DNA from: Hyphomonas beringensis
Lineage (GTDB): Bacteria; Pseudomonadota; Alphaproteobacteria; Caulobacterales; Hyphomonadaceae
Reading direction: 5' to 3'
Assembly (NCBI RefSeq): GCF_000682755.1
Contig: NZ_AWFF01000030.1
Location: 1 to 64,000 of the forward strand
Length of the DNA: 64,000 nt
Within the stretch, counting starts at the first letter, position 1; the number at the start of each line of letters is the position of its first letter. This document shows positions 8,112-26,917 of the stretch, one piece after another. The notes under the pieces are model-generated. The model ran no database searches. It was not told the DNA's origin and worked only from the letters and a program-made list of their open reading frames with translations. Made by a program: the position numbers and the translations under genes.

Positions 8112-8124
8112 GGAGGAAAAGCCA

Positions 8125-9081: not shown

Positions 9082-10244
9082 TCCAGAGACAGGCCAAGCT
9101 CTGCAAGAACTTCTTCGGTGTGCTCACCGATACGCGGTGCCGGGCGGATTTCCTTTTTCGGCGCGCCCACAAAATGGACCGGCGGTTGGGGCTCCCAATA
9201 CCCACCTTCTGTAGGGTGCTCGCGCCGCTGGAAGAAATTGACCGCCTTGAGGTGCGGATCTTCCTGCAGATCCGGAAAATCATTCGCCCTGGCCGCTGGG
9301 ATATCCGCGTCTGACAGAACTTGCAGCCAGTGCTCCGTAGGCTGATCCTTGAAGTAGTGCTGCACCCGCTCCATCATATAGTCCATGTTGAAATAGCGGC
9401 CGCGATAATCACTGATACGGTCATCTTCCAGTTCCTGCGGCGCACCGATCACGTCGAACAGTTTCACCCATCGGGCGTCCACATAGGGCGCAATGACGAT
9501 ATAGCCGTTAGAGGTTTTCAGCGGCTGGCGGCACGGGTCCACCTGGCGCTGATAGCAGAACGGACCATTCGCCGGATCAAAGACCGCCTCGTAGAAATGC
9601 TCTTCCAGCAGGAAGTGGGTGATGCATTCGAACATCGGCACTTCGACATGGACGGCCTCTCCTGTGCGATCGCGCTGGCGGAGGGCAGCGAGCGTGGCAT
9701 AGACGGCATGAAGACCGGAAACCTTGTCTGCAAAGGCAGTCGGGATGAAACGCGGGCGCTCATTTCCATCAACCTTTGGCAACAGCATGGTCGCGCCCGA
9801 TAGCCCCTGGATAAGATCATCATAGGCTGGGCGGCCCGCATAAGGCCCCTCCGAGCCGAAGCCGACGCAATGGATATAGACAATATCCGGCTTGATCTTC
9901 TTCACTTCCTCAAAAGTGAGGCCAAGGCGGGCGACCGCATCGGCGCGAATGTTGTGGATGAAAACATCGCTCGTCTCTATCAGCTTTCGGATGGCGGCCT
10001 TGCCTTCATCGGATTTCATGTCCCAAACCACAGAGCGCTTGCCGCGGTTCATGGTCAGGTGACACGGCCCCATGCCCTTGGTGTTGGCGGGCTTGCCGAC
10101 ATTACGGAAATCGTCACCCTTCTCCGGCTCAACCTTCACGACCTCAGCACCCATGTCTGCCAGGGTCTGCGTGCAGTAAGGGCCGAAGATGACCGTCGTC
10201 ATGTCGGCGATGCGCAGGTCAGACAGAACATTCGTTGCGGGCAT
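9078..10244 (-). CDS. CaiB/BaiF family CoA transferase (family III)
   Basis: The 388-residue protein belongs to the class III CoA transferases. It shows FGPYCTQTLADMGAEVVKVE near the N-terminus, NRGKRSV, and the region AYDDLIQG holding the catalytic aspartate. These enzymes move CoA between a carboxylic acid and a donor such as succinyl-CoA during catabolism of aromatic, terpenoid or other acids. A very strong ribosome site (GGAGGAAACC) precedes the ATG. It is convergent with the SDR-esterase pair. Together with the hydrolases it suggests an acid released from an ester being activated for degradation, which is inference. Confidence 0.92.
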   Translation of the reverse strand: MPATNVLSDLRIADMTTVIFGPYCTQTLADMGAEVVKVEPEKGDDFRNVGKPANTKGMGPCHLTMNRGKRSVVWDMKSDEGKAAIRKLIETSDVFIHNIRADAVARLGLTFEEVKKIKPDIVYIHCVGFGSEGPYAGRPAYDDLIQGLSGATMLLPKVDGNERPRFIPTAFADKVSGLHAVYATLAALRQRDRTGEAVHVEVPMFECITHFLLEEHFYEAVFDPANGPFCYQRQVDPCRQPLKTSNGYIVIAPYVDARWVKLFDVIGAPQELEDDRISDYRGRYFNMDYMMERVQHYFKDQPTEHWLQVLSDADIPAARANDFPDLQEDPHLKAVNFFQRREHPTEGGYWEPQPPVHFVGAPKKEIRPAPRIGEHTEEVLAELGLSLD

Positions 10245-13193: not shown

Positions 13194-13389
13194 CGGCCTC
13201 AGCCAATCCTGACAAAGCTAAATCCAGCAGACCGCCTGTCTTAGCGGGGAAGTCTCATCGGCGAAAGCACAGGCTTTGGGCATTAGCGCGCCCTTTCGCG
13301 CAGCTTGCCCTAAAAGCGACTTAACACATTGAATCCAATAGCAATACACCATGACAGAAAGGATGCATGAAAGGGCGAACACACAAAAT

Positions 13390-13430
13390 ACAAACGTTTG
13401 TGTTGACGCCTGCGCGCGGCTTTGTATGGT
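13390..13430 (+). promoter_or_regulatory. LacI-type operator 1 and promoter of the SGNH operon
   Basis: Bases 13390-13401 are the perfect palindrome ACAAACGTTTGT. Directly after it comes a candidate sigma-70 promoter: TTGACG at 13403-13408, a 16-base spacer and TATGGT at 13425-13430. The operator therefore abuts the -35 element, a position where a bound repressor would block polymerase. The palindrome recurs upstream of four other units of the locus. The rest of 13194-13389 shows no gene. Confidence 0.75.
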
Positions 13431-13530: not shown

Positions 13531-14388
13531 ATGAAGCTGACCCACACGTTCCTGGCATCCATGGCTGCGGTCTCACTTGGCATGGCCGCTCATTCGGAAG
13601 AACCTGTTGCCGCCCCCGCCCCCCATGTGTGCCCGGAATTGAGCCCTGAGGGCGCCGTGTTCATGGAGGGCGTCGTTGAGCGGATGATGGATCCGGACAG
13701 CAATTTCACCCATGCCTCGGTGCTCAGCGCCCCGGAGTTTCCCGAAATTCGCGCACGGGATGAACGCCTGCTCAAGGAAGACTGGGGGAATGTCTGCAAA
13801 TACCAGAAAGACAATGAGACGGTGCTTGAAGGACAAGCGCCGAAAGTCGTCTTCATGGGCGACTCCATCACGGAATTCTGGCGTGTGGGCGACAAGGAGC
13901 TGTTTACTGACGGCGTCATCGATCGCGGCATCAGCGGGCAAACCTCTTCGCAAATGCTGGTTCGCTTCTGGCAGGATGTGGTAGCACTGAAGCCCCAAGC
14001 CGTGCACATCATGGCAGGCACGAATGATCTGGCCGAGAATACCGGTTATGTCAGCGACGAAGCCTACAAAAACAATATCCGTTCCATGACGACCCTGGCC
14101 CAGAGCAATGACATTGCTGTCATTCTTGCCAGCATACCGCCCGCCGACGTGTTCGGGTGGCGCCCGGAACTACAGCCCGCCAAGCGTATCGACACCCTGA
14201 ACGCCTGGCTTGAGGACTATGCCGCCGAAGTCGGCGCAGTTTATGTGGACTATCACAGCCTTCTGTCTGAAGATGGCAAGGGCATGACGCCCAAATATAC
14301 GCCTGATGGTGTTCACCCGAACCGCCTTGGCTATGCCGCAATCCATGACACAGCAGAAGCGGCAATCACTAAAGCCCTTCAAGACTGA
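13531..14388 (+). CDS. Exported SGNH/GDSL hydrolase
   Basis: The 285-residue precursor has a Sec signal peptide (MKLTHTFLASMAAVSLGMAA) and then an SGNH hydrolase domain: block I FMGDSIT with Ser112, block II glycine in ISGQTS, block III MAGTNDL and block V DGVHP with the catalytic Asp-His pair. It resembles the GDSL esterases related to platelet-activating-factor acetylhydrolase, which remove small acyl groups from sugars or lipids. It is expected in the periplasm. It is the first gene after operator 1, has a strong GAGGAGGAG ribosome site, and is followed 11 bases later by a second SGNH gene. Likely sugar deacylase; the acyl type is unknown. Confidence 0.88.
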   Translation: MKLTHTFLASMAAVSLGMAAHSEEPVAAPAPHVCPELSPEGAVFMEGVVERMMDPDSNFTHASVLSAPEFPEIRARDERLLKEDWGNVCKYQKDNETVLEGQAPKVVFMGDSITEFWRVGDKELFTDGVIDRGISGQTSSQMLVRFWQDVVALKPQAVHIMAGTNDLAENTGYVSDEAYKNNIRSMTTLAQSNDIAVILASIPPADVFGWRPELQPAKRIDTLNAWLEDYAAEVGAVYVDYHSLLSEDGKGMTPKYTPDGVHPNRLGYAAIHDTAEAAITKALQD

Positions 14389-14399
14389 GGCCTGAGCAA

Positions 14400-15677
14400 A
14401 TGAAACGCTTTTCTCTGCGAAAGCCTTCGGGCGTACTGGCCCTCCTCGCTTCCAGCGCCACATTGATGCTGGCCGCCTGCCAAACGGCCGATCTGGAAGC
14501 CCAACCCCTTTCCTCCGAAAACTGGGTTGCGACATGGGCCAGCAGCCCTTCCCTGCCTGTGCCGCCTGAAGCCGCCCCTCGCGGCATGGTGGCGCCCCGC
14601 CTTGAGGGCACAGTGCGCTATTTCATGCGTGTCAGTGCAGGTGGCGAGAAAGTCCGCATCGTTCTGGATGGCGGCCCAAGTGTTGACCGTCTATCCATCG
14701 GCTCTGCCAGTATCGCGCTCGCCACCAAAGATGGCATCGATACGGATACGATCCGTCCCCTGAAGTTCTTCGGCCGTGATGATTTGCTTCTGCTGTCTGC
14801 CGGCGCGCCGATCTGGAGCGACCCCGTCGACCTCGATGTTCCCGATGGCAGTGTTGTGGCCGTCAGCCTCTATATGCGTGAACCTGTGAATGTCGCTCAA
14901 GCCGACCCACAACTCATCGCGCATGTTGCACCGGGTGCAGATCAGACCCGCAGCCAGAAATTGGAAAACAGCAAAACACTTGTCGGACAGCCTTTGGTAT
15001 CCGCCATTCACACAGACAATGCGGATGTTGACCGCGTGGTCGTGGCCTTTGGCGACTCTATCACGGACGGCATGGGCAGCCGCGATCCCTTGATGAGAGG
15101 GTGGCCGGACTATCTGGCAGAGCGAATGCGCGCCGCAGGCATGGACGATGTGGCGATTGTGAATCACGGCATCGGTGGCAACCGTCTGCTTCAGGATAGT
15201 GTAGGCCAAAGCGCCCTCGCCCGCTTTGATCGCGATGTGCTTGGAATGCCCGGCGTGACGGATGTGATCATTCTGGAAGGCATCAATGATATTGGCGTGA
15301 GCGGACTGGTCATGCCTGGCCGGACAGAGCCTTACGGCCGGGTGACCGCTTCCGATATTACGAGCGCTTACATACAGCTGATCGAACGAGCACACGCCAA
15401 TGGCATCCGCGTAATCGGCGCCACCCTGACGCCTGATCTTGGCTCTCCGTTTCCGGGCTACGCCACAGAGAAAAAAGATGTCATCCGCAAGGAGGTCAAT
15501 GACTGGATCCGCAATAGCGGCGCGTTTGATGCCGTCATCGACTTTGACGCCGCCGTGCGAGATCCGGAAAATCCTGACTATCTGGCCGAGAAATACAATT
15601 CCGGCGACCGTATTCATCCCTCAGATGTCGGCTACAAGGCTATGGCAGAGTCGATTGATCTCGACCTGTTTCGCTAA
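14400..15677 (+). CDS. SGNH/GDSL hydrolase lipoprotein
   Basis: The 425-residue precursor carries a lipobox LMLAAC (Cys27), so it should be a membrane-anchored lipoprotein. Residues about 40-200 form an all-beta N-terminal module, and residues about 212-425 form the SGNH domain: FGDSITDG, HGIGGNR, EGINDIG and DRIHPSDVGY. This two-part layout is seen in secreted esterases acting on decorated polysaccharides or plant esters. It is in one operon with the preceding SGNH gene. A second operator lies between this gene and the transporter downstream. Having two esterases of different architecture in one unit suggests they remove different acyl groups, which is inference. Confidence 0.88.
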   Translation: MKRFSLRKPSGVLALLASSATLMLAACQTADLEAQPLSSENWVATWASSPSLPVPPEAAPRGMVAPRLEGTVRYFMRVSAGGEKVRIVLDGGPSVDRLSIGSASIALATKDGIDTDTIRPLKFFGRDDLLLLSAGAPIWSDPVDLDVPDGSVVAVSLYMREPVNVAQADPQLIAHVAPGADQTRSQKLENSKTLVGQPLVSAIHTDNADVDRVVVAFGDSITDGMGSRDPLMRGWPDYLAERMRAAGMDDVAIVNHGIGGNRLLQDSVGQSALARFDRDVLGMPGVTDVIILEGINDIGVSGLVMPGRTEPYGRVTASDITSAYIQLIERAHANGIRVIGATLTPDLGSPFPGYATEKKDVIRKEVNDWIRNSGAFDAVIDFDAAVRDPENPDYLAEKYNSGDRIHPSDVGYKAMAESIDLDLFR

Positions 15678-15744
15678 GCGTGCACCTGACCGGACCTGAC
15701 TTGACCCAAAAGACCAGAATGGAGATGAGCGAGCGCGACGGATT

Positions 15745-15758
15745 TACAAACGTTTGTA
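15745..15758 (+). promoter_or_regulatory. LacI-type operator 2 (transporter-glycosidase operon)
   Basis: TACAAACGTTTGTA is a perfect 14-base palindrome, 37 bases before the start of the MFS gene and downstream of the SGNH stop codon. Its 12-base core is identical to operator 1. I could not define a convincing -35/-10 pair here; TTTACA overlapping the operator is a weak -35 candidate. Confidence 0.75.
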
Positions 15759-15795
15759 TTTCTCGTAGCGTTCTCCCATACCGAGGAACATTGAT

Positions 15796-17070
15796 ATGAG
15801 CTCACTGGATAGTTCTGCCCCATCAGGCGCCGGACAGACCCGCAGCGGATACCCGCTGGTCACCGCCCTCACCTATGCGATGTTCTTCATGTTCGCCATG
15901 ACAACGGATGCCGTCGGCGAAATCATCAGCATCGCCAAGGAGGAGATGAATCTCTCCAATACCGAGGCAAGCCTGTTCCACTGGGCGACGATGGTCGGCA
16001 TCGCGCTGAGCGGCATTCTGCTGGGCTCGCTCGCCGACTCTATTGGCCGGAAGAAGGCGATCATTGTCGGCCTGGCCGTGTACGCAGTTTCGTGCGCCGC
16101 GTTTTTCGGGTTCAGCTCATTTGCCTTCTATCTCGGCCTGCTGTTTGCGGGCGGCCTCGCGATTGGTGTATTCAAGACGGCCATCCTGGCGCTGATTGGT
16201 GACATCACTACGTCCACCCATGACCACACGCGCCGCATGAACGCCTGCGAAGGCTTCTTCGGAATTGGTGCCATCATTGGCCCCATGATTGTCGTTTCGC
16301 TGGACAAGGCTGGCCTGTCCTGGCGCTGGCTCTACCTGTTCGCTGCCGCAATGTGTGTGGTGATGATCATTGCCTCGCTGAGAACGACCTACCCCTCTGC
16401 TTCAGAGAGCAAGAAACCCGATCCGGAAAAGACAGACACAGATCTGCTCAGCACCATTCGCCTGATGGGAAATCGCTATGCCATGGGCTTCTCCATGGCC
16501 ATCGCCCTCTATGTGGCATGCGAAGTCTCGATCTTCGTCTGGGCCCCTACGCTGTTCGCAGACTTTACCGGCACGCCACTTGCCACGGCGGTCGCCGCCT
16601 ATGCCGTCATGATCTTCTTCATCCTGCGTGCAGTGGGCCGGTTCCTGGCCGTCTGGATCCTCCAGATGTTTGACTGGAAGCTTGTCATGGCGGCGTTCAC
16701 CGGTGTGATCTTCCTGTGCTTCCTGTTGAGCGCCGTGATGGGCAAGGCGACCGCCGTGTTCCTGCTGCCCTTCTCCGGCCTGTTCATGTCGATGATCTAT
16801 CCAACATTCAACTCGAAGGGCATCAGCTGCCTTCCCAAGGCCAAGCATGGCGCCGCAGCAGGACTGATCCTGTTCTTCACGGCCGTATCTGCCGCCTTTG
16901 CACCGCTTCTGATGGGCTATGTCAGCGATACGTTCGGCGGTGGGAACATGGAGATTGGCTTCCGCCTGGCCACCATCTTCGCCGGCCTGCTCTTCGTCTT
17001 CGCCATTTACAACGCCATTGCAGACCCGGCCGGCAGCACGCTCGCTGAAGCTGACTCGCAAGAATACTGA
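15796..17070 (+). CDS. MFS sugar transporter
   Basis: The 424-residue protein has about 12 hydrophobic segments and the MFS loop motif GSLADSIGRKKAI between helices 2 and 3. Its overall pattern suits a sugar:proton symporter of the inner membrane. It is followed nine bases later by the GH-J-like glycosidase, so the pair probably imports and then cleaves the same sugar. Expression should be controlled by the palindrome just upstream. The substrate is inferred from its neighbours to be a beta-fructoside such as sucrose or a fructo-oligosaccharide; the sequence alone does not show this. Confidence 0.85.
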   Translation: MSSLDSSAPSGAGQTRSGYPLVTALTYAMFFMFAMTTDAVGEIISIAKEEMNLSNTEASLFHWATMVGIALSGILLGSLADSIGRKKAIIVGLAVYAVSCAAFFGFSSFAFYLGLLFAGGLAIGVFKTAILALIGDITTSTHDHTRRMNACEGFFGIGAIIGPMIVVSLDKAGLSWRWLYLFAAAMCVVMIIASLRTTYPSASESKKPDPEKTDTDLLSTIRLMGNRYAMGFSMAIALYVACEVSIFVWAPTLFADFTGTPLATAVAAYAVMIFFILRAVGRFLAVWILQMFDWKLVMAAFTGVIFLCFLLSAVMGKATAVFLLPFSGLFMSMIYPTFNSKGISCLPKAKHGAAAGLILFFTAVSAAFAPLLMGYVSDTFGGGNMEIGFRLATIFAGLLFVFAIYNAIADPAGSTLAEADSQEY

Positions 17071-17079
17071 GACGCATAT

Positions 17080-18204
17080 ATGTCTACCCAAAAACCGACA
17101 CCGGTTCCGCCGCCGTCGCCCCTTCGCTTTGAGAATGGTATCGCGCACCCTGACCTCTGGTTGTGGGATTCCTGGACGACCCAGCTGAATGGCAAGACGC
17201 ATCTCTACAGTCTGGCGCTAAGCCGTGTGGACTCTGCAGGCCATCAGGTCAGCGAAGGCGAGCGCAATAACTACCCCTTCCATATTCGCCACTTTGTCTC
17301 TTCAGATGAAGGCATGACGTGGGCAGACGAAGGCGTCTTTCTGGAACCGAAGGATGTTGGCGATGGCGCATTTGCCCGCAATGTCTGGAGCGGGTCCATC
17401 CTGGCCAGACCTGAAGGCGCCTGGGTCTGCGGTTTTACGGGTGTGCGCGAGGTCAATGCCCTGACGCCGTTCCTGCAAACCATCTGCCTTGCATCCTCTG
17501 AAAACGGAGCGCACCTGGACACACTGCCCGAAAGCCCGCTCTCCTGTCCGCAGCGTGACTATGATGAGATCCGTGCCGCAGGTTATTACCTTCCCGAGAA
17601 AGACAAGATCGGCGCCCATGATGGCGAAGAAGGTGGCCCTATTCTGGCCTGGCGCGATCCGTTCATTCTGGAAGGCGAGCAAGGCAAATTGGAAGTGTTC
17701 TGGTCGGCCAAGGTCTCGCCCGCACGCGGCGCTGTTGCCCACGCAACCGTTGTTCAGACCGGCAGTGATTTCCGTATCGAGACGCTGCACCCGCCGATGA
17801 CGCTTCCCGATGATGAGGCCTTCACGCAGGCCGAAGTACCGAAAGTGTATCAAGACGCCAAATCTGGTGCGTACTATCTCATCATCTCGGCCTGTGATCG
17901 CCTGAGCGAAACGCAGCCTGCGGATGAGGTGACCAAGATGCTGCGGCTCTACAAGGCGCCCTCTCTGCGCGGGCCATGGGTCTCCGCATTTCCAGGACAA
18001 GACTCCGTCATCCCCGGAACAGAGAATTTGTTTGGCGCGAGCATCATGAGTACGGATTTCGACGCTGGCATCCTACGCCTGATCGCACCTTATACTGAGT
18101 ATGCCTCAGCCGATCTGCAGCTGACCTTCCCGCTGCCTGTCGACATTCAGCTGCCTCAGCAAAGCGCTGATATCGCCGTCGCAGCGAACGCTGAAGCCAA
18201 CTAG
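17080..18204 (+). CDS. GH68-like (clan GH-J) beta-fructosidase, cytoplasmic
   Basis: The 374-residue protein shows, in the right order, the marks of a five-bladed propeller of clan GH-J: LWDSW with candidate nucleophile Asp30, VWSGS (102-106), WRDPF with Asp193 as transition-state stabiliser, and AEVPKVY with candidate acid/base Glu252. These parallel WD-W, WSGS, RDP and E-P of GH68 levansucrases and inulosucrases. It lacks a signal peptide, so it likely acts in the cytoplasm as a sucrose or fructoside hydrolase. It follows the MFS gene by nine bases and is convergent with lacI, the two stop codons lying one base apart. The exact family is uncertain because the motifs are divergent (EVPK rather than ERPH). 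Confidence 0.75.
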   Translation: MSTQKPTPVPPPSPLRFENGIAHPDLWLWDSWTTQLNGKTHLYSLALSRVDSAGHQVSEGERNNYPFHIRHFVSSDEGMTWADEGVFLEPKDVGDGAFARNVWSGSILARPEGAWVCGFTGVREVNALTPFLQTICLASSENGAHLDTLPESPLSCPQRDYDEIRAAGYYLPEKDKIGAHDGEEGGPILAWRDPFILEGEQGKLEVFWSAKVSPARGAVAHATVVQTGSDFRIETLHPPMTLPDDEAFTQAEVPKVYQDAKSGAYYLIISACDRLSETQPADEVTKMLRLYKAPSLRGPWVSAFPGQDSVIPGTENLFGASIMSTDFDAGILRLIAPYTEYASADLQLTFPLPVDIQLPQQSADIAVAANAEAN

Positions 18205-18205
18205 A

Positions 18206-19210
18206 TCAGGCTGAGTCGCGGACGATCAATTCGGTTTTGGTGAAACGTGAATTCACCTTCTCGCCCTCAAGTTTGGCGAGCAGAAGCTCAACCATCATCT
18301 GACCACCCTGGGAGATGTTCTGGGAGACTGTCGTGAGCGGCGGGGTCATCATCGAGGCCTGGCCGATATTATCGTACCCAACGACGCGCACATCACCTGG
18401 AACGCTGAGGCCTTTGGCCACCAGGGCATGGATCGCAGAATTTGCAAGAAGGTCAGAGCTGGCGAATATGCCGTCGATCTTGTTGCCGGCGCGAAGGAAG
18501 TCCAGAACCTGATTATAGGTCGTGCGGCCACCAAAATTCATGCGCAGCAGATAGGATGGATCATGGCTGATACCGGCCTCTTTTTGCGCTTTCAGGAAAC
18601 CATCATAGCGTAGCTTGACTTCTGGCAGGTCCGGGTCCCCCAGGAAGAGGATGCGCCTGGCACCGCGCTCAAGAAGGTGTGAGGTCGCAATGTGGCCGCC
18701 CTTTACATTGTCGCTGCCGACCGTCGTGTATTTGGCGCGCTTGATACGTCCGCCCCATACCACGAAATTGGAGTGAACTTCGGCCAGTTCATTCAGCCGC
18801 TCAATCCGAGCCGCCTGCCCGATCACGATAATGCCATCCGCACGCCCCGTATTCAGAAGGCGTCTCTCGGCGACCTGACGCGCATCGCGCGGCACAGTAA
18901 CGACAAGATCATAGTCCAGATCCGCTGCAGCCTGCGAAACAGCTCCCACCATTTCCAGATAGAAAGGGTCAGACATCGTCTGCTCGGCTTCCTGATCCAG
19001 AGGGATAACCATGCCAATGGCGCGCGCAGACTTGCGGCGCAGACTGCTGGCAGGCGCATTCACAGCATAGCCGATTTCGTCAGCAATGCGCTGGATACGG
19101 CGGCGCGTGCTTTCTTTGACGACAGGGCTGTTGTTCAATGCCCTCGATACCGTCGAGATATCGACGCGGGCAATCTTTGCCAGCTCCAGCATTGTTACTT
19201 TCTTGTTCAT
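18206..19210 (-). CDS. LacI-family transcriptional regulator
   Basis: The 334-residue protein has an N-terminal LacI helix-turn-helix (MLELAKIARVDISTVSRALNN, 7-27) with hinge-helix NAPASSLRR, then a periplasmic-binding-protein-like sensor domain (residues about 60-330) with DGIIVIG and GVRVVGYDN-type signatures (VRVVGYDNIG). LacI proteins of this kind bind CG-centred palindromes and let go when a sugar binds. Five such palindromes flank the genes around it, making it the obvious local repressor. No copy lies within about 250 bases of its own start, so it may not be autoregulated. Confidence 0.93.
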   Translation of the reverse strand: MNKKVTMLELAKIARVDISTVSRALNNSPVVKESTRRRIQRIADEIGYAVNAPASSLRRKSARAIGMVIPLDQEAEQTMSDPFYLEMVGAVSQAAADLDYDLVVTVPRDARQVAERRLLNTGRADGIIVIGQAARIERLNELAEVHSNFVVWGGRIKRAKYTTVGSDNVKGGHIATSHLLERGARRILFLGDPDLPEVKLRYDGFLKAQKEAGISHDPSYLLRMNFGGRTTYNQVLDFLRAGNKIDGIFASSDLLANSAIHALVAKGLSVPGDVRVVGYDNIGQASMMTPPLTTVSQNISQGGQMMVELLLAKLEGEKVNSRFTKTELIVRDSA

Positions 19211-19469
19211 TCCTGCCGTCCGTTAGTCTTTATAATCCGGATATTTCAAGCAGTCCCCACCCTCAACTCCATGAGCAATCTGCCTCGTCTTGTAATAATC
19301 TAAGGCAATGCTGATGGGAATGCGAGTGCCTTCCCCTGCCAAGGGTAACGGGCGCGCTGAGGTGAGACAAAAACATGCTGATCTGCCCTCATTGCTGCGC
19401 TTGCAGGCTTTAGGCCCCTGCTATGCAGGAGAAGAATGTGACGTCGTTTTACAGCACCTGAATGGAGTA

Positions 19470-19483
19470 TACAATCGTTTGCA
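19470..19483 (+). promoter_or_regulatory. LacI-type operator 3 (esterase-esterase-kinase unit)
   Basis: TACAATCGTTTGCA is an imperfect CG-centred palindrome. It overlaps a -10-like TATACA (19468-19473), giving the block GGAGTATACAA that recurs at the receptor promoter. It lies 137 bases before the Tat-lipoprotein esterase gene, in the 410-base gap between it and divergent lacI. The rest of that gap (19211-19465 and 19485-19620) shows no gene or RNA I can recognise. Confidence 0.65.
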
Positions 19484-19620
19484 TTTCATGACCCAAACGT
19501 GTTAATGTTCAGGCATAAGCTGCGCCATGCCCCGGTGCCTGCAAAGGCATATGAATTTCCGGGAGTTGGTCATCAGGCAAGTTAGCCTCTTTGAGAGGCA
19601 AAATTGAGGAAACCTGAAGG

Positions 19621-20703
19621 ATGAAGATCAGCCGCCGGCAGTTTGGACTCGCAGGCCTCGGTGCGGCAGGCGCAGTGGCACTGGGCGCATGCGCGAGCAG
19701 GGCAACGGCTAAGCCAGGCATCCCCAGCGGTGCTGTCGCAGCAGACCCCCTAACCCATGTCGCGCCTGAGTATCGCGAAGCGGCCCGGTTCTTTATCGAG
19801 GGCGGCCCTCCGGGTGTCGACTCCATGGAGACCCTCAAAGCGGCGCGTGGTGGCGGAGCCGCCTTCGCCGCGCCGCGTTTACCAGACATTCCCGTCAGCA
19901 AGGAAATCATTCCCGGCAGCATCGATCAGCCGGATGTCACCCTGTATGTGATCAACGCGAAGCCGGGCGAGAAGCGCCCTGCCATTCTGCACACACATGG
20001 CGGCGGCTTCATTCTGGGCGCTGCCGAATGGGAAGTGGGCAAACTTCAGGGTATCGCGAAAGAGCTGAACTGCGTCATCGTGACGGTTGAGTATCGCCTT
20101 GCCCCGGAAACGCGTTTCACAGGCTCTGTCGAAGATAATTATGCCGGGCTGCTCTGGCTCTACAACAATGCCGCATCTCTGGGAGTCGACCAGGATCGTA
20201 TCGCCCTGATGGGGGAAAGCGCAGGGGGCGGGCACGCTGCCCTGCTCGCCATCGCAGCGCGAGACCGGCGCCAGGTGCCTTTGGTGCTGCAGATCCTGAT
20301 CTATCCAATGCTGGATGACCGGACCGGCAGCACGCGGCAGATGCCACCCTATATTGGCGCAATTGGCTGGACTGCCGATTCCAATCGTTTTGGCTGGGAA
20401 TGCTTCCTTGGCCAGACGCCCGGCGGCCCCGATGTTCCTGCTGCGGGTGTTCCTTCGCGTCAGACAGATCTCTCAGGTCTTGCCCCAGCCTTTATTGGCG
20501 TAGGCGGCGTGGACCTGTTTGTCAGCGAGTCGCTTGAGTATGCGCGCCGTCTGACAGAAGCAGGCGTCATGACGCAGTTTCATCTCGTGCCCGGCGCATT
20601 CCATGGCTTCGACTTTGTCCAGGATGCCATGCCCACCAAACTTTTCAACAAGGCCAAGATGAATGCCCTGCGCAGAGCATTCGGACAGCCTTTGGACCTC
20701 TGA
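19621..20703 (+). CDS. Tat-exported lipoprotein esterase (HSL family)
   Basis: The 360-residue precursor begins SRRQFGLAGL, a twin-arginine signal, and ends the signal in LGAC (Cys24), so it should be exported folded and then lipidated. The catalytic domain has HGGGF (125-129), GESAGG with Ser199, Asp297 in GGVDLF and His327 in AFHGFD, an intact triad. It is very like the cytoplasmic esterase at 8125. It leads a unit with a second alpha/beta hydrolase and a ROK kinase, controlled by operator 3. The likely role is to remove acyl groups from the incoming sugar at the membrane surface. Confidence 0.9.
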   Translation: MKISRRQFGLAGLGAAGAVALGACASRATAKPGIPSGAVAADPLTHVAPEYREAARFFIEGGPPGVDSMETLKAARGGGAAFAAPRLPDIPVSKEIIPGSIDQPDVTLYVINAKPGEKRPAILHTHGGGFILGAAEWEVGKLQGIAKELNCVIVTVEYRLAPETRFTGSVEDNYAGLLWLYNNAASLGVDQDRIALMGESAGGGHAALLAIAARDRRQVPLVLQILIYPMLDDRTGSTRQMPPYIGAIGWTADSNRFGWECFLGQTPGGPDVPAAGVPSRQTDLSGLAPAFIGVGGVDLFVSESLEYARRLTEAGVMTQFHLVPGAFHGFDFVQDAMPTKLFNKAKMNALRRAFGQPLDL

Positions 20704-20774
20704 TAAAGTCAGGCTCCCCCTTTCAGAGGCCCTTGCCCACTCATATACCGACACCATCCCATGGAGGAATGAAC

Positions 20775-21902
20775 ATGAAAGCCGGATTTTCCATCCCTGC
20801 CCCTCTGGGCCGCCTGATGATCGCGGGGGCTATCTCGCTCTCTGCAGCGCTTGGGACAGCCCAGGCACAAGACGGCCCTCCGAAAAACCCCGTAACGGTT
20901 GATACAGACGGCACGGTGAATGTGCCCGCCATGTCTGTGCCCGTGACAGAGTATCTGAGCCCGGAAGGCAAGGCATACCTGACCGAGCACTTGCTGACGA
21001 TGCAAAACCCAGCGCTTCTGAAGGAAGTTGAAGAGATCGGCGCGCCAGGCTTTCTGAAAGGCTACATGGAGCGCCAAGCCGAGCTGTTTCCGTTCAAAAA
21101 AGAAGATACCGAAATCGGCGGCGTGCATGTCTATGAGTACACGCCAGTTGATGGTGTTGCAGAAAGGAACAAGGACCGCGTCCTGATCAATCTGCATGGC
21201 GGCGGCTTTATCACCTGCTGGCCGGGCTGCGCGGAGCTCGAATCTGTTCCGTTGGCCTCGCTGGGCAAGTTTCGGGTTGTCTCCGTCGATTATCGCCAAG
21301 CCCCTGAATACAAATTCCCTGCTGCCAGTGAGGACGTTGCGAAAGTCTATGCTGAGCTTCTGAAAACGTATCCCGCTGAAAACATCGGCATCTATGGCTG
21401 CTCCGCAGGCGGAATGCTGACGGGTATGTCTGTCGCATGGTTCCAGGCACACGGACTGCCGAAGCCGGGCGCGATTGGCATCTATTGCGCAGGATCAGCG
21501 GCGCCCGTGAATGGTTTTGGCGGGGACGCAAACTATACGGCAACAGCTATTGGCGAAGGCCGCTTCATGGCCCCGCCGAGCGGAGCACAATCCGAAAAGC
21601 CAAAACGCTCCCAGATGCCTTACCTTTCCGAAGCAGACCCGTATGACCCGCTGGTCGCTCCGGCCGAGTCCGATGAAGTCATGGCGCAATTCCCGCCAAC
21701 CCAGATCATCACCGGGACACGCGGCTTTGAGCTAAGCTCGGCTGTCTATACGCACAGCCGTCTCGTCAAGGCCGGTGTGGATGCTGATCTGCATGTCTGG
21801 GAAGGCATGTTCCACGGCTTCTTCTACAATCCGGACGTACCGGAATCCCGCGACGCCTATGATGTGATGATCAACTTCTTCGACAAGCATCTGGGCAACT
21901 AA
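20775..21902 (+). CDS. Exported alpha/beta hydrolase (HSL-like)
   Basis: The 375-residue precursor has a Sec signal peptide ending near GTAQAQ (29-32). The mature part carries HGGGF (141-145) and GCSAGG with Ser210, and the histidine in FHGFFY. At the place where related enzymes have GTRD (catalytic Asp) this one reads GTRGFE, so the acid appears replaced by Gly, with a Glu two residues on. The ATG at 20775 is preferred over that at 20769 because GGAGG is then correctly spaced. It follows the Tat esterase by about 70 bases. A periplasmic acyl-ester hydrolase is likely. Confidence 0.87.
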   Translation: MKAGFSIPAPLGRLMIAGAISLSAALGTAQAQDGPPKNPVTVDTDGTVNVPAMSVPVTEYLSPEGKAYLTEHLLTMQNPALLKEVEEIGAPGFLKGYMERQAELFPFKKEDTEIGGVHVYEYTPVDGVAERNKDRVLINLHGGGFITCWPGCAELESVPLASLGKFRVVSVDYRQAPEYKFPAASEDVAKVYAELLKTYPAENIGIYGCSAGGMLTGMSVAWFQAHGLPKPGAIGIYCAGSAAPVNGFGGDANYTATAIGEGRFMAPPSGAQSEKPKRSQMPYLSEADPYDPLVAPAESDEVMAQFPPTQIITGTRGFELSSAVYTHSRLVKAGVDADLHVWEGMFHGFFYNPDVPESRDAYDVMINFFDKHLGN

Positions 21903-22005
21903 GCGCGCAGTCAAAAGCGCAGACTATTCCAAGCCATGGGCGCAGTGATTTCTCGCTGCGCCCTTTTCAAACCCCCGCCAGGAATTCAGATAATCGGAGC
22001 GCGAT

Positions 22006-22902
22006 ATGGATACGGATCAGCTTCTGGCAGCTGTGGAACTGGGCGGGACAAAGTCTATCGCCCTGCTTGCCAGAGGGCATGACATTCTGGAGCAGATAAC
22101 TGTTCCAACGACGACACCGGACGAAACGCTCAGTCAGCTGCAAAATCAGCTAAGAACGTGGTATGCTGCGGAGCCATTCTCCGCCATTGGCATCGCCTCA
22201 TTCGGGCCTGTGCAATTGCAGCAGGATCAACCGGATTTCGGCTGCATGCTGGATACGCCCAAACCGAATTGGAGCCAGGCACGTGTTGCGCCCGTCCTGA
22301 CTGAGCCATTTTCCTGCCCGTGGAAATTCGATACGGACGTCAATGGCGCGGCGCTGGCGGAATATAAATGGGGCGCAGGCAAGGATTGCGACAGTGTATG
22401 CTATGTCACAATCGGCACGGGCCTGGGCGCAGGTTTACTGATCCACGGTACGCCGATCCATGGCGCTATGCATCCGGAAGTCGGCCACATCAAAACTCGT
22501 CGGGCCGAGGGAGACTCATTTGGCGGCGCTTGCCCTTTTCATGGAGACTGTATTGAGGGTCTGGTTGCCGGACCCGCACTCGCAGCACGCTTCAACGCAG
22601 ACATGCGCACCGTACCGGACGATCACCCTGTTTGGCAGAATGTAGCGCATGATATTGCGGAGCTAACAGCGACAATCCTTCTGACAACCTCTGCGCAGCG
22701 CATTTTGTATGGAGGCGGTGTCTCCACATTGCGCCCATTCCTGCTTCCTATGGTGCGAGAGCGCGTCGTCAAGAACCTTGGCAGCTATCTGCCATTCCTT
22801 GATGCTCAGTCAGCAGAAGAGATCATCCGTCCTCCTGCTCTAGGGAATGAGGCCGGCCCACGCGGCGCCTTGGCCCTGTCCATGGCCGCTCTGGAGATCT
22901 GA
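22006..22902 (+). CDS. ROK-family sugar kinase (fructokinase-like)
   Basis: The 298-residue cytoplasmic protein has the ROK phosphate-binding motif ELGGTK (11-16), catalytic Asp in DTDVNGA (Asp111), the glycine-rich TIGTGLGAG (135-143) and a zinc site formed by EVGH161 with CPFHGDC (Cys176, His179, Cys182). The CPFHGDCIEGL form is characteristic of the fructokinase branch of the family (such as Bacillus YdhR/GmuE). It would convert fructose to fructose-6-phosphate. It is last in the unit begun by the Tat esterase, and a bidirectional terminator follows. Mannose or glucose activity cannot be ruled out. Confidence 0.85.
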   Translation: MDTDQLLAAVELGGTKSIALLARGHDILEQITVPTTTPDETLSQLQNQLRTWYAAEPFSAIGIASFGPVQLQQDQPDFGCMLDTPKPNWSQARVAPVLTEPFSCPWKFDTDVNGAALAEYKWGAGKDCDSVCYVTIGTGLGAGLLIHGTPIHGAMHPEVGHIKTRRAEGDSFGGACPFHGDCIEGLVAGPALAARFNADMRTVPDDHPVWQNVAHDIAELTATILLTTSAQRILYGGGVSTLRPFLLPMVRERVVKNLGSYLPFLDAQSAEEIIRPPALGNEAGPRGALALSMAALEI

Positions 22903-22953
22903 GCGGAGCACGCGCCCTTCTCCTCGATCAGTTCGCATAGCGGATAAAAAAAG

Positions 22954-22988
22954 AAGCCGGACAGGACTTGAAGGTCCGTCCGGCTTTT
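22954..22988. terminator. Bidirectional rho-independent terminator
   Basis: A long inverted repeat, AAGCCGGACaGGAC then TTGAAG then GTCCgTCCGGCTT, ends in TTTT on the plus strand and in a run of seven T on the minus strand. It lies between the convergent ROK kinase and ceramidase-fold genes and can stop both transcripts. Confidence 0.9.
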
Positions 22989-23028
22989 CAGTTTGTGAGC
23001 GGATTGTAAAACGCTCAGGCCCTATTGC

Positions 23029-24396
23029 CTATTCTACCTCTTCCACAAGATCGAGCAGACCATCCACGATGGCGGTTTCCGCGCATCCTGGTTTCAGGCG
23101 TGAAGACACAACCTCAAAAGTATACTGACCATAAGCGGCATCATTCGGGATATAGCCCGTACGCGCCATGCCATTGGTCAGGGTCGTCATCATAGTGTGC
23201 TTGTAGGGCGATTCATTCTTGAAGCGCTGCGCGATCATCGTGAAGATCTCAGCATTAACGCCACCAATCACCGTGTCGCCAATCTTCAGCATGCTCAATT
23301 GGATACCGAGCGGGTCAGCGTCTTCATATACGCCCGCATATCCAGCGCGTCCCTTGTCCAGGCGATTGCGACCCGGGCACATCACGATTTCCTGCGTTCC
23401 GGTGATACTGGCTTCGGAAACAGGGCGCTCCAATCCGCTCCGCATGACATGAAGAACTTCCTCGCCAAGCATCTGTCCCATTGAGAGGGTCATCTGCTTC
23501 TGCTGCTCCATCAGCATGGCAACCTTCGGATTATCACGATCCATACCCTTGCCGCCTGGCGGCATGGCATTGCTGATATCTTCACCACGCTTCGCATAAT
23601 CCTCAATGCGGATTTCACGAAGGTCATAGGTTTGCTGGAAATAGATCGGGTTCTGATCACCTGCAGCGCCATTGGAATACACCGCAATGGCATCATTACC
23701 GAGGGATTGCTCGATATAGCGGGACGCAGCCCCTGGCAGATCGCCGCTGATGAGGTCCAAATTTCCGGTCAAAACAGCATGGACGCCATAATTGTAATAA
23801 ACGCCAATCGGCTTTCCTTCGGGTGTTTCGAAGGTGACGACCGCAACAGTCTTGTCTGAAGGGCCTTCATAATTAGGGCCTTCCCACCAGCGATTAGTCT
23901 CCGGATCGATGATGTTGCGATTTACATTGATATAGGAAACGCCTGTTCCATAGGCCATTTCGGCAGGCTGCAGGGTACTGGCCGCATCCTTGATGGCTTC
24001 ATAGATTTCGTCTTCATACCCCTCATCCCACCCGAACGGCACACTATGAGTGTGCGTCGCGGTCAGCATGACGTTCTCTGCGGGAATGCCGAGTTCAGCT
24101 TCAGCCTTTTCGGTGACGCGCTGCCAGATCGGATCAGGGATAACGCCGGCATCGACGGTCACCAGCGCGGCGCGCGTCTCGCCATTATCGATCACGATGG
24201 CCCGGGCAAAAATATGGTCCAGAACGCCCAGGAAATTCTTTGGCAGAGCTTCCCCCATCGGGGTGATGTCTACTTTGGCGGCACCGGCCTTCAGTGCCAG
24301 ATCATCCGCATAAGCAGCCCCTGCAGCCATGACTGCACTGGCCGCCAACGCGACCATTTTTCGAACCCGTCCATTTGGGCGTGGAAATACTGACAT
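23029..24396 (-). CDS. Exported neutral ceramidase-fold hydrolase, serine replaced
   Basis: The 455-residue precursor (Sec signal ending AAGAAYADD, about 24-32) matches the N-terminal domain of neutral/alkaline ceramidases: AGAAKVDITP, zinc ligands in THTHSVPF (His115, His117), GVHAVLTG (His206) and YSNGAAGDQNP. In characterised ceramidases the last motif reads GDVSP and its serine is catalytic; here it is GDQNP, with Asn249. The C-terminal ceramidase domain also looks short. It is therefore unlikely to be a true ceramidase, and may be a zinc hydrolase acting on another ester or amide. The ATG at 24396 follows GGGAGGAC; the upstream frame to 24552 crosses operator 4 and is rejected. Confidence 0.82.
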   Translation of the reverse strand: MSVFPRPNGRVRKMVALAASAVMAAGAAYADDLALKAGAAKVDITPMGEALPKNFLGVLDHIFARAIVIDNGETRAALVTVDAGVIPDPIWQRVTEKAEAELGIPAENVMLTATHTHSVPFGWDEGYEDEIYEAIKDAASTLQPAEMAYGTGVSYINVNRNIIDPETNRWWEGPNYEGPSDKTVAVVTFETPEGKPIGVYYNYGVHAVLTGNLDLISGDLPGAASRYIEQSLGNDAIAVYSNGAAGDQNPIYFQQTYDLREIRIEDYAKRGEDISNAMPPGGKGMDRDNPKVAMLMEQQKQMTLSMGQMLGEEVLHVMRSGLERPVSEASITGTQEIVMCPGRNRLDKGRAGYAGVYEDADPLGIQLSMLKIGDTVIGGVNAEIFTMIAQRFKNESPYKHTMMTTLTNGMARTGYIPNDAAYGQYTFEVVSSRLKPGCAETAIVDGLLDLVEEVE

Positions 24397-24441
24397 GTGT
24401 GTCCTCCCTGTCTTCTCGATGGAATCAGATGCAACAAATTT

Positions 24442-24455
24442 TGCAAACGATTGTA
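24442..24455 (-). promoter_or_regulatory. LacI-type operator 4 (ceramidase-fold gene)
   Basis: TGCAAACGATTGTA on the plus strand is the exact reverse complement of operator 3 (TACAATCGTTTGCA). It lies 46 bases upstream of the minus-strand ceramidase-fold gene and overlaps a -10-like TACAAT in that direction. Confidence 0.65.
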
Positions 24456-24730
24456 CGATGTTTAAAGACGCCCCCTTCCTGATGCAAGTTTGCAAGCAAT
24501 TTTCATGACTTTTTTGAGGTCTGCATTCGTTATTCCATTCTAGAGAGCGCAAAAGAGAATAAACATCACTTTAGGTTGGCACCCCCAAAGACACAAAATT
24601 ATCTTTGTTTTTATTGTATTTTATTGAAATCCGAACTTCCTTTTGTCTCATTTCAGGTGCGGCATGAGTGGCCCTGTCTTAAAACCGATGCATTTGCGCA
24701 ACGGATGACAGCGAAACGAAGCGCGCACTC

Positions 24731-24769
24731 TTGGAATCTAAAATTTCGGAGAGTATACAAACGTTTGGA
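24731..24769 (+). promoter_or_regulatory. Receptor promoter with LacI-type operator 5
   Basis: TTGGAA (24731-24736), a 17-base spacer and TATACA (24754-24759) form a credible sigma-70 promoter. The operator TACAAACGTTTGGA (24756-24769) overlaps the -10 and the predicted start of transcription, the classical position for repression. The receptor ATG follows 33 bases later. The remainder of the 406-base gap 24397-24802 is AT-rich with no gene seen. Confidence 0.75.
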
Positions 24770-24802
24770 ATACGCAAAAGATGACCCACAGGGAGGGATA
24801 AA

Positions 24803-26917
24803 ATGTTGCGACTTCAAAATGCTTCCATGTTGTCACTGGCAATCGCCATGACCATGATGGCCAGCCCGAGCTACGCTCAGGAAGACACTCAGGAAACTCC
24901 TGAAAAAGACTACCAGCTCGACACTGTGGTCGTGACGGCAACGAAATCCGGCGCCACAGAACTTCAGACCGTTCCTCTGGCAATCCAGGCTTTCAGTGGC
25001 GAAGAACTGAAAGAAAGAAACATCAACACGGTCGATGACCTTGTTTCTACCATTCCAGGTGCCTTCGAAGGCCAGCGCCAGTCTGTCGCTTCGCGCTCCT
25101 ACAACCTTCGCGGCGCTGGCGGCAGCAACGCGAACGGCGACTCCCCTATCGGCTATTATCTGGACGATGTCCCCTTCATCGTAACCAATTTCGGCATTGC
25201 ACCGCCGGTACGCTTCCTGGACATGGAACGGGTTGAAGTTCTGCGTGGCCCACAAGGTACGCTGTATGGCCAAGGCTCTTCAGGTGGTGTGTTCATCTTC
25301 CACACGAAGGACCCGAACCTGCAGGAAGTAGAATATGCTGCTGAAGCTGAACTGTCCCAGACAGCAGATGCCAGCGACATGAACTACGGCATTTCCGGTG
25401 CGGTCTCCGTTCCAATCATCAAGGACAAGCTGGCCCTGCGCGTCAGCGGTGGCCACTCCCGTAATCCAGGCTGGGCTGATGCCTATTACGGTCCGTTTGA
25501 TGGCACACCAGACGAAGAAGATGTCAACGAAGCGAAGAACGATGACATCCGTCTTGTCGCCCTGTACCGCCCTACCGACAATATCACACTGCGTGGTCAG
25601 TATTGGCACTTCCAGCCGCGTCAGGATTTCACGGGCTTCACAGCGTCAGTTAAGCCACCCTATTTCGAAAACACAGCTGGCCAGCAGGGCTTCAGTAACG
25701 GCGACTTCAAACTTTGGAGCTTCACGGCCGAAGTTGAGTTCGACAACTTCATGGTCACCAGTGCCACCAGCAATCTGGAAGGCGAGTTCGGAATCAATAT
25801 TCCGCTGTCGCCGGCCGGTTCCTTCTCCAGCCAGTTCTACCCGAAAATGTTCGCTCAGGAACTTCGCGTGAACTCCACGACGCCAGGGCCTCTGCACTGG
25901 ATTGTCGGCGCATCCTACCAGGATGGTGAAGGCCCACAGGCCAACGACCTGACCCTCCCGGCGATTGTCATCAATGCTGACAACAATACGCTGACGGAAA
26001 ACTGGGCGCTGTTCGGCGAAGTCAGCTATGACCTGTTCGACGGCAAACTGGTTCCGCTGGTTGGTCTGCGTACATATCACGATGAACGCACCTTTGAGGA
26101 CGACACGGTTTCCCTGCCGACGGAAAAAGACGTCAACACATGGCGCCTGAACCTGTCATATATTCCGAACGACAACCTCACCATGTTTGCAACGGCCTCT
26201 ACAGGTTTCCGCGCAGGCATTGTGCAGTCCAAGGTACAGGTTGAATCCCTGCGCCTCGCAGGTGTTCCCGCCGAAGTCGCCCTGCAGCCCGAAGAGTCAA
26301 CCAACTACGAAGTCGGCCTGAAATGGCGTAACTCCAGCCGTACCCTGACGGTTGGCCTGAACCTCTACCAGACTGAGTACACCAACCTTCAGACAAGCAC
26401 GCCTGGCTTCATTGATGATGTCGACGGCTTCTCCAATTTTGGTGATGCGACCACCAAGGGTCTCGATTTTGAAATCCGCTGGGACACGCCGCTCGAAGGC
26501 CTGACGCTCAGCACCGTCGGCAACATCAATGACGGCGAGTATGACAGCGTGAACCAGGCCGTTCAGCAGGCACTGCCGCTGTTCACGCCCGGCTCCCGCA
26601 TGGTGAACTCCATCGAGGATACATATCGTTTCGACGCAAACTATACGCGTGATCTCGCGAATGATCTGGAAGGCTTCGGCAACATTGGCTTCACCCATAC
26701 GGGTGACCGTCTGCAGGCAAATGGCCTTACGGCGGATCCCTATGACATGGTCAATGTAACTCTGGGTGTGCGCACTGGTCCGTACGAGATTGCGTTCATC
26801 GGCACCAATCTCGGCGACGAGCGTGGGCCGAGCTTCCTGGGAACGGACGGCCCGCTGTCCGGCTCCGGCCCGATCCCGCGCACGATGGGTATCCGCGTTC
26901 GCGTTCTTTCGCAGTAA
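24803..26917 (+). CDS. TonB-dependent receptor
   Basis: The 704-residue precursor has a signal peptide (MLSLAIAMTMMASPSYA), a TonB box-like LDTVVVTA, a plug domain (residues about 55-170, with YYLDDVPF and RVEVLRGPQGTLYG) and a C-terminal 22-strand barrel. The last residues are RVRVLSQ, without the common terminal Phe. It imports a substrate across the outer membrane using TonB energy. There is no SusD partner, as expected for Proteobacteria. Control by an operator overlapping its -10 element ties it to the sugar locus. It begins behind AGGGAGG. Confidence 0.93.
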   Translation: MLRLQNASMLSLAIAMTMMASPSYAQEDTQETPEKDYQLDTVVVTATKSGATELQTVPLAIQAFSGEELKERNINTVDDLVSTIPGAFEGQRQSVASRSYNLRGAGGSNANGDSPIGYYLDDVPFIVTNFGIAPPVRFLDMERVEVLRGPQGTLYGQGSSGGVFIFHTKDPNLQEVEYAAEAELSQTADASDMNYGISGAVSVPIIKDKLALRVSGGHSRNPGWADAYYGPFDGTPDEEDVNEAKNDDIRLVALYRPTDNITLRGQYWHFQPRQDFTGFTASVKPPYFENTAGQQGFSNGDFKLWSFTAEVEFDNFMVTSATSNLEGEFGINIPLSPAGSFSSQFYPKMFAQELRVNSTTPGPLHWIVGASYQDGEGPQANDLTLPAIVINADNNTLTENWALFGEVSYDLFDGKLVPLVGLRTYHDERTFEDDTVSLPTEKDVNTWRLNLSYIPNDNLTMFATASTGFRAGIVQSKVQVESLRLAGVPAEVALQPEESTNYEVGLKWRNSSRTLTVGLNLYQTEYTNLQTSTPGFIDDVDGFSNFGDATTKGLDFEIRWDTPLEGLTLSTVGNINDGEYDSVNQAVQQALPLFTPGSRMVNSIEDTYRFDANYTRDLANDLEGFGNIGFTHTGDRLQANGLTADPYDMVNVTLGVRTGPYEIAFIGTNLGDERGPSFLGTDGPLSGSGPIPRTMGIRVRVLSQ

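Follow-up and report, generated by a model that had tools for sequence, protein, structure and literature searches.

A ten-gene locus at positions 13531-26917 was examined in a 64,000-nucleotide stretch of Hyphomonas beringensis DNA (contig NZ_AWFF01000030.1, positions 1 to 64,000), which is called the window below. It encodes a GH-J (GH68-like) enzyme, an MFS transporter, a ROK sugar kinase, a LacI-family regulator and a TonB-dependent receptor (TBDR), along with five hydrolases: two of the SGNH type (SGNH1 and SGNH2), two alpha/beta hydrolases (ABH1 and ABH2) and a ceramidase-fold protein (CERA). With moderate confidence, these genes are read here as a regulon for the use of a small beta-fructoside that bears acyl groups, a sucrose ester being the likeliest. 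An earlier note on this DNA had named nine of the genes, and the list of open reading frames, together with family searches, recovers all nine as placed; the LacI regulator, although a member, had been left out.

In the proposed scheme, the TonB receptor would carry the sugar ester across the outer membrane, and the five exported hydrolases, two of them probably lipid-anchored, would deacylate it in the periplasm or on the cell surface. The freed sugar would then be brought inside by the MFS carrier and cleaved by the cytoplasmic GH68-like enzyme, the released fructose being phosphorylated by the ROK kinase. The sugar or one of its breakdown products would release LacI. The locus would be related to a plain sucrose-like module that occurs in its order, to which the hydrolases were added and in which the outer-membrane receptor was exchanged.

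The distribution of the genes was followed in 61 genomes, 57 of which have a completeness of 90% or more and a contamination of 5% or less. A GH-J gene is present in 13 of them. Its usual surroundings, termed the plain core, consist of a ROK kinase, a carrier, the GH-J enzyme, a LacI regulator and another TonB receptor. Among 20 named loci there are 15 plain cores, three loci with the window's gene order (order A) and two with a second arrangement (order B). The earlier note had stated that ordinary sucrose loci such as sux and scr have no esterases. In the 15 plain cores, a search at E<=1e-10 detected none of the hydrolases within the stretch covered, which is sometimes a short one. The extended set occurs in seven of the 61 genomes, four in order A (G000, G016, G008 and G034) and three in order B (G005, G002 and G028). 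Contig ends interrupt the set in two of the latter, G028 and G005, and in G002 they cut a second receptor. Close orthologues of SGNH1 (at least 58% identity), SGNH2 (at least 59%), ABH2 (at least 75%), CERA (at least 74%) and ABH1 (at least 60%) are confined to these same seven genomes, all of which also have the GH-J gene. Distant homologues were seen in further genomes, namely of SGNH2 in three (36-40%), SGNH1 in two (40-46%), ABH2 in three (31-41%) and ABH1 in 23 (41-47%).

An operator-like palindrome, TRCAAWCGWTTGYA, is common to the units that hold the regulator, the inner carrier, the cleavage enzyme, the kinase and the receptor. Scored for palindromes, four of the intergenic stretches yielded this one sequence, and a pattern search added the fifth site, before CERA. 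At no more than one mismatch, the window contains five sites, one in each of the five locus promoters and none elsewhere; at up to three mismatches it contains six, five of them in the locus, as against 0.49 expected in shuffled sequence. Over 22 loci (467 kb, the window included), 73 sites were counted, compared with 0-2 in five Markov resamples. In order A, all four loci have a site at each of the same five promoters; the one before SGNH1 recurs in the three other loci (L014, L015 and L016), and the one before TBDR keeps an identical 47-base spacing in them. Order B has 14 sites across four stretches. Every one of the 14 plain-core loci scanned has at least one site, which in 13 is next to one of the genes for the kinase, the carrier or the GH-J enzyme. 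Three plain cores (L018, L038 and L045) have further sites upstream of a TonB receptor gene identified with Pfam, and one site (L028:10811) sits within the GH-J gene.

In each of the 13 genomes with GH-J, and at 20 of 20 named loci, the LacI gene is the neighbour of the GH-J gene. The ten genes probably form one LacI regulon, in which five sites would cover all ten if SGNH2, GH-J, ABH2 and ROK are each co-transcribed with the preceding gene. As for the loci counted, those with duplicate identifiers were used once in the trees and the 22-locus scan (L020=L040, L021=L039, L034=L014, L035=L016, L036=L015, L037=L018, L043=L033, L044=L028). The split set of G028, on two contigs, makes up two of the 22 stretches (L039 and L076); L023, L024, L027 and L031 belong to the scan from which the degenerate form of the motif was derived and lie outside the 22-locus scan and the trees.

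The receptor follows the same division. A search with the L018 plain-core receptor gave matches at E<=1e-60 in six of six core genomes, all within ~8 kb of the GH-J gene, and in none of the seven extended genomes. The match is full-length in two of the six (100% in its own genome and 65%). The window's receptor type (at least 69%) is present in the seven extended genomes, being split in G005 between two contigs (75% and 68%). Since the core receptor is found in every core genome and in no extended one, the extended strains seem to import something else, and no other observation hints as strongly as this exchange that the substrate has changed. The proposal of the earlier note that the esterases belong with the beta-fructosidase is thus borne out by the shared operator motif, the same seven genomes, the two gene orders and the receptor exchange.

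The GH-J enzyme itself is a divergent protein whose nearest family appears to be GH68, a placement that comes from its relatives, motifs and fold. In Pfam, GH68 is not listed for it at E<=1, and GH32 appears below threshold (E 0.002); searched singly against PDB sequences, it gives no match at E<=0.001. In an alignment of 21 GH-J proteins, 15 members match Pfam GH68 (best E 2.6e-6), and the profile of the 21 matches levansucrases in PDB at E 8e-6, with 16 of 16 matches being levansucrase or GH68. The residues W29, D30 and W32 of W29-D30-x-W32, R192-D193-P194, and E252 and P254 of E252-V-P are invariant in 21 of 21. In GH68, the Asp of WDxW is the nucleophile and the Glu of ExP the acid/base, the Asp of RDP being a further characteristic residue. 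The AlphaFold2 model (predicted local distance difference test, pLDDT, 89.8) has a beta-propeller fold. Its Foldseek ranks 1-9 are GH68 inulosucrases and levansucrases (E 1.6e-14 to 3e-11, TM score 0.56-0.64 by query), followed by GH32 from rank 10 and by GH43 arabinofuranosidases from rank 23. As GH32 stands directly behind GH68, the fold leaves the two families undivided. By simple hydropathy, the N-terminus has no signal-like hydrophobic stretch and no lipobox. The earlier description as a GH68-like cytoplasmic beta-fructosidase is therefore consistent with the motifs, profile, fold and N-terminus, while a Pfam GH68 match of the protein's own is absent.

The ROK kinase has the ScrK model NF045550 as its best NCBIfam match (E 2e-53), at 181.8 bits as against a cut-off of 400. 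That the sugar is a small beta-fructoside, as the earlier note implied, is thus favoured by the GH68-like motifs, by a kinase nearest to ScrK and by the lack of an exported fructanase in the locus, and is weakened by the kinase falling below the ScrK cut-off. Plain sucrose is disfavoured because of the receptor and the hydrolases.

As regards the hydrolases, their density here is unusual for the genome. The 3.8 Mb genome has two PF13472 and nine PF07859 proteins at E<=1e-10; four of these 11 lie within the 13.4 kb of the locus, including both PF13472 proteins, whereas random placement would put ~0.04 there. All five were predicted to be exported, and this prediction agrees with the hydrophobic N-terminal stretches seen by simple hydropathy in five of five, once the starts of ABH2 and CERA were corrected; SGNH2 and ABH1 also have lipobox-like motifs. 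The start of CERA is most likely 24396 rather than 24552, since conservation does not extend to the additional N-terminal residues and there is an operator-like site immediately upstream of 24396.

SGNH1 has its GDS motif at residue 110, and its nearest solved structure is 3p94 (E 8e-50), deposited as a GDSL-like lipase. SGNH2 is closest to 7toj (E 2e-60) and 7tog (E 3e-56); residues 35-425 of 425 align with 7toj, which takes in both the N-terminal domain, which is like a carbohydrate-binding module (CBM), and the C-terminal SGNH domain. The entries 7TOG-7TOK are acetyl xylan esterases of the FjoAcXE type and, according to PMC9105624, those of the 7toj type free acetate from glucuronate-substituted xylan. 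They resemble SGNH2 in two-domain architecture and overall sequence. The locus itself encodes no xylanase. A sugar ester is therefore a plausible substrate of SGNH2 and glucuronoxylan not a likely one, given the kinship with acetylesterases and the absence of their GNSI motif and arginine. Nearly as close are 9kqz-9kr3 (E 6e-59), which have GDSITDG as in SGNH2; a literature search for them found no paper. Distant relatives of SGNH1 and SGNH2 in G053, G045, G042, G026 and G060 have surroundings that look unrelated by eye and give no clue to the substrate.

ABH1 and ABH2 are, by sequence, esterases of the hormone-sensitive lipase (HSL) type. ABH2 matches the GCSAG HSL subfamily at E 5e-105 (351 bits, below the cut-off of 410), and its nearest solved structure is PMGL2 (E 5e-65), with E25 also among the closest. 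CERA aligns with neutral ceramidase over ~210 residues of its N-terminal region (E 1e-12), retaining HTH and VH, and scores 18.9 bits against the neutral ceramidase equivalog of NCBIfam, the cut-off of which is 1200. The HTH motif is common to CERA and the ceramidase structures 2ZWS and 4WGK, although CERA has 455 residues as compared with 646. Its structure model (pLDDT 40.8, from five sequences) is unusable. A class-wide search in 385 genomes drawn from the class gave, besides the window's genome, one distant match, in G234; the other six extended genomes are not among the matches, as the draw probably did not include them. In G234, the translations of the surrounding genes, read by eye, include a TonB-receptor-like gene and no recognisable sugar enzyme.

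Table 1. Genes and operator-like sites of the locus, in positions of the window.
Feature	Position	Strand	Evidence or placement
LacI-type operator-like site TACAAACGTTTGTG	13389..13402		142 bases before SGNH1
SGNH1, exported GDSL hydrolase (predicted)	13531..14388	+	PF13472 E 6e-27
SGNH2, two-domain SGNH hydrolase, lipobox-like signal; FjoAcXE-type relative	14400..15677	+	PF13472 E 2e-26
LacI-type operator-like site TACAAACGTTTGTA	15745..15758		51 bases before MFS
MFS transporter, probable inner-membrane sugar uptake	15796..17070	+	PF07690 E 3e-38
GH-J (GH68-like) enzyme, cytoplasmic, probable beta-fructosidase	17080..18204	+	motifs, profile, predicted fold
LacI-family regulator, probable regulator of the locus	18206..19210	-	PF00356 + PF13377
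LacI-type operator-like site TACAATCGTTTGCA	19470..19483		between LacI and ABH1
ABH1, PF07859 hydrolase (GESAG), twin-arginine + lipobox-like signal	19621..20703	+	PF07859 E 1e-52
ABH2, PF07859 hydrolase (GCSAG), exported (predicted)	20775..21902 (listed open reading frame start 20733)	+	PF07859 E 2e-32
ROK sugar kinase	22006..22902	+	PF00480 E 2e-47; best NCBIfam match fructokinase ScrK
CERA, ceramidase-fold protein	23029..24396	-	PF04734 E 2e-22
LacI-type operator-like site TGCAAACGATTGTA	24442..24455		46 bases before CERA start
LacI-type operator-like site TACAAACGTTTGGA	24756..24769		47 bases before TBDR
TBDR, TonB-dependent receptor, of another type than that of the plain core	24803..26917	+	PF00593 E 1e-32, PF07715 E 1e-16

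Several points weigh against reading the locus as a sugar-ester regulon. The first concern the enzymes. SGNH2 has GDSI where the acetylesterases have GNSI, and DGMGS, with Met, where they have the ligand-contacting Arg of DGRGS (PMC9105624), so its substrate should differ from theirs. The PF07859 proteins act on many esters. In CERA, Asn occupies the position of the nucleophile serine: seven of seven proteins have AGDQNP where neutral ceramidase has AGNLSP, a motif located where the alignment runs out. The serine of AGNLSP is the nucleophile of neutral ceramidase, and CERA may be inactive or have another function. The GH-J enzyme is too divergent in sequence to fix its sugar; six of its 21 relatives also touch GH43, and GH43 arabinofuranosidases appear in its fold list.

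The regulatory and comparative evidence has its own weak points. The palindrome was derived from this window, and its degenerate form from an earlier multi-locus scan, so the site counts are descriptive and not independent tests; binding of the sites by this LacI is inferred, and all 14 sites of order B carry one mismatch. At up to two mismatches, the whole genome has seven palindrome sites, five of them in the locus, against ten for the reversed control. The weight therefore rests on the clustering and the conserved positions rather than on the genome-wide number, and the two extra sites mean little. One of them (C65:39072) falls within a small open reading frame, at its beginning, and is probably a chance match. 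The other (C1:224155; L069, G000) lies ~110 bases before a 992-residue TonB-receptor-like gene, near genes that by eye look Lrp-like, sulfatase-like and carrier-like, and would possibly be a further regulon member. With respect to the receptor, the L018 match is limited to the first ~350 residues (40-42%) in four of the six core genomes. Furthermore, G029 (L080, C176:7011-8543) has a 69% receptor fragment at a contig end, with no match to GH-J, CERA, SGNH1, SGNH2 or ABH2 and only a 41% homologue of ABH1; either a break in the assembly or a receptor standing alone could account for this exception. The 13 GH-J genomes are related and not independent, so the receptor pattern should not be counted as 13 independent cases.

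Of the other explanations, the least unlikely is that the esterases act on non-sugar esters (lipid, cutin-like or aromatic) that co-occur with sucrose, with sucrose or fructose serving as the switch signal only. The breadth of the PF07859 and GDSL hydrolases speaks for it, as do the general esterases among the closest solved relatives of ABH2 (PMGL2 and E25) and the likeness of CERA to a lipid amidase. However, as the plain-core receptor was not found in the seven extended genomes, the new receptor may be the route by which the sugar itself enters, and the nearest solved relatives of known function of SGNH2 are carbohydrate esterases (PMC9105624). We hold this explanation to be unlikely.

An acylated glycoside of another sugar, with the GH-J enzyme shifted to, for example, an arabinofuranoside or a different fructoside, is somewhat less probable again. 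Its GH68 and GH32 matches are weak, GH43 is touched by six of the 21 relatives, the GH43 arabinofuranosidases in the fold list reach E 2e-10 with a TM score by target of 0.71, and the kinase scores far below the ScrK cut-off. Nevertheless, the WDxW, RDP and ExP residues are invariant in 21 of 21, GH68 fills the first nine fold ranks and all 16 PDB profile matches are levansucrase or GH68, and ScrK is still the best NCBIfam match of the kinase.

Fructans are beta-fructosides, and relatives in GH68 act on them; an acylated fructan, levan-like or inulin-like, that is broken down extracellularly was hence also considered. This is improbable, as the sole GH-J enzyme of the locus has no signal-like N-terminus, no exported fructanase is found in the locus (the rest of the genome was not searched for fructanases), and MFS carriers take small sugars. 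Among the acyl-sugar candidates listed in the earlier note, the acylated fructan polymer is accordingly the one made less likely, since the only fructosidase of the locus is cytoplasmic. An ordinary sucrose locus with unrelated esterases adjacent by chance is very improbable: each family on its own is common in bacteria, but the operator-like sites in five promoters, the occurrence of the five hydrolases in the same seven genomes in two gene orders, and the genome-wide family counts rule chance clustering out. Plasmid cargo was likewise rejected, as a comparison with 72,556 plasmid records (very near genomes possibly not included) gave nothing closely similar.

The favoured sugar-ester regulon can be set against known systems. 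The nearest is the plain GH-J core of Hyphomonadaceae, Robiginitomaculaceae and Parvularculaceae, which shares the GH-J family, the LacI family and the operator motif, and differs in having another receptor and another ROK subgroup, with the five hydrolases not found. The sux loci of Xanthomonas are a sucrose-use system and, as in the scr loci, a carrier, intracellular sucrose cleavage, a fructokinase and LacI logic are combined much as here, although the cleavage enzymes are other than the GH-J enzyme. To our knowledge, de-acylating enzymes are not part of the sux and scr loci. The acylsugar acylhydrolases of plants are carboxylesterases of the PF07859 kind. In plant acylsugar turnover (acylsugar acylhydrolases, ASFF1), deacylation and fructoside cleavage occur as proposed here, while these are trichome enzymes that have no genetic system in common with the locus (PMC7599763). 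The LacI-type SuxR and ScrR are listed, along with CscR, as sucrose regulators in PMC4052901, the main text of which does not name Hyphomonas. The searches of open-access papers found no described locus with this gene make-up, in keeping with what the earlier note had said.

Order B departs from the window in several ways. Along with the five hydrolases it has two more, their families being those determined in L039. One, of the alpha/beta type (BD-FAE E 3.5e-17), immediately precedes ABH1 and GH-J, and the other, a PF00135 carboxylesterase (E 2e-93), adjoins a second receptor. Its carrier is a different MFS protein, unmatched by the window's MFS at E<=1e-8; the latter is 59-65% identical to the MFS proteins of the nine core loci compared, and the plain core L038 has a PF13347 carrier in place of MFS. 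Identity to the window in order B, as compared with that in the order-A loci L015 and L016, is 70-77% against 67-74% for ABH2, CERA and TBDR, 56-58% against 57-59% for SGNH1, 62-63% against 64% for ABH1, 49% against 61-63% for GH-J, 60-61% against 80% for LacI and 58-59% against 69-71% for SGNH2. ABH2, CERA, TBDR, SGNH1 and ABH1 are thus about equally similar in both orders, while GH-J, LacI and SGNH2 diverge more in order B. This would fit a set of hydrolases that was combined with two distinct cores, with SGNH2 speaking against it. The two orders do not group in the GH-J tree, yet their grouping is not rejected by the approximately unbiased (AU) test (p 0.318) and appears, weakly, in the LacI tree (support 79/79); the trees do not decide whether the module was joined separately to two cores. 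The kinases of 13 cores share only 34-41% identity with the order-A ROK kinase, and the order-B kinase, as seen in L039 alone, shares 36% with it; another ROK subgroup seems to have replaced the kinase of the core in order A.

Some neighbouring genes were also recorded. A group of CaiB-like CoA-transferase, SDR and alpha/beta hydrolase genes lies near the locus (window 8092-10244), and the same group stands beside the plain core of H. atlantica (L028:15328-18213), with a CaiB homologue also near the plain core in L029 and L033. The core and the extended locus may occupy neighbouring chromosomal sites. At 5054-6280 of the window there is an open reading frame of 408 residues with, by eye, an alpha/beta hydrolase part and a flavin-reductase-like part. 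A gene of the tryptophan-halogenase family is found beside the plain-core receptor in L045 (13175-14719, PF04820) and, by eye, in L038 (13260-14816).

If the sugar-ester reading is true, the locus would offer a complete, regulated bacterial route for the use of a sugar ester, each step of which has a testable enzyme. It would show how a sucrose pathway can be retargeted through the exchange of a receptor and the addition of hydrolases, the esterase set possibly differing in acyl position or length, and would hint that acylated sucrose or similar esters reach these bacteria. A bolder version can be put forward only tentatively: a bacterial pathway for polyacylated sucrose, with a receptor specialised for intact acylsucrose, five to seven hydrolases that share out acyl positions or chain lengths among them, CERA as a novel sugar-ester hydrolase without the serine, and a GH-J family separate from both GH68 and GH32. 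In that case, the seven genomes would point to an unnoticed pool of acylated sucrose in the habitats of these bacteria.

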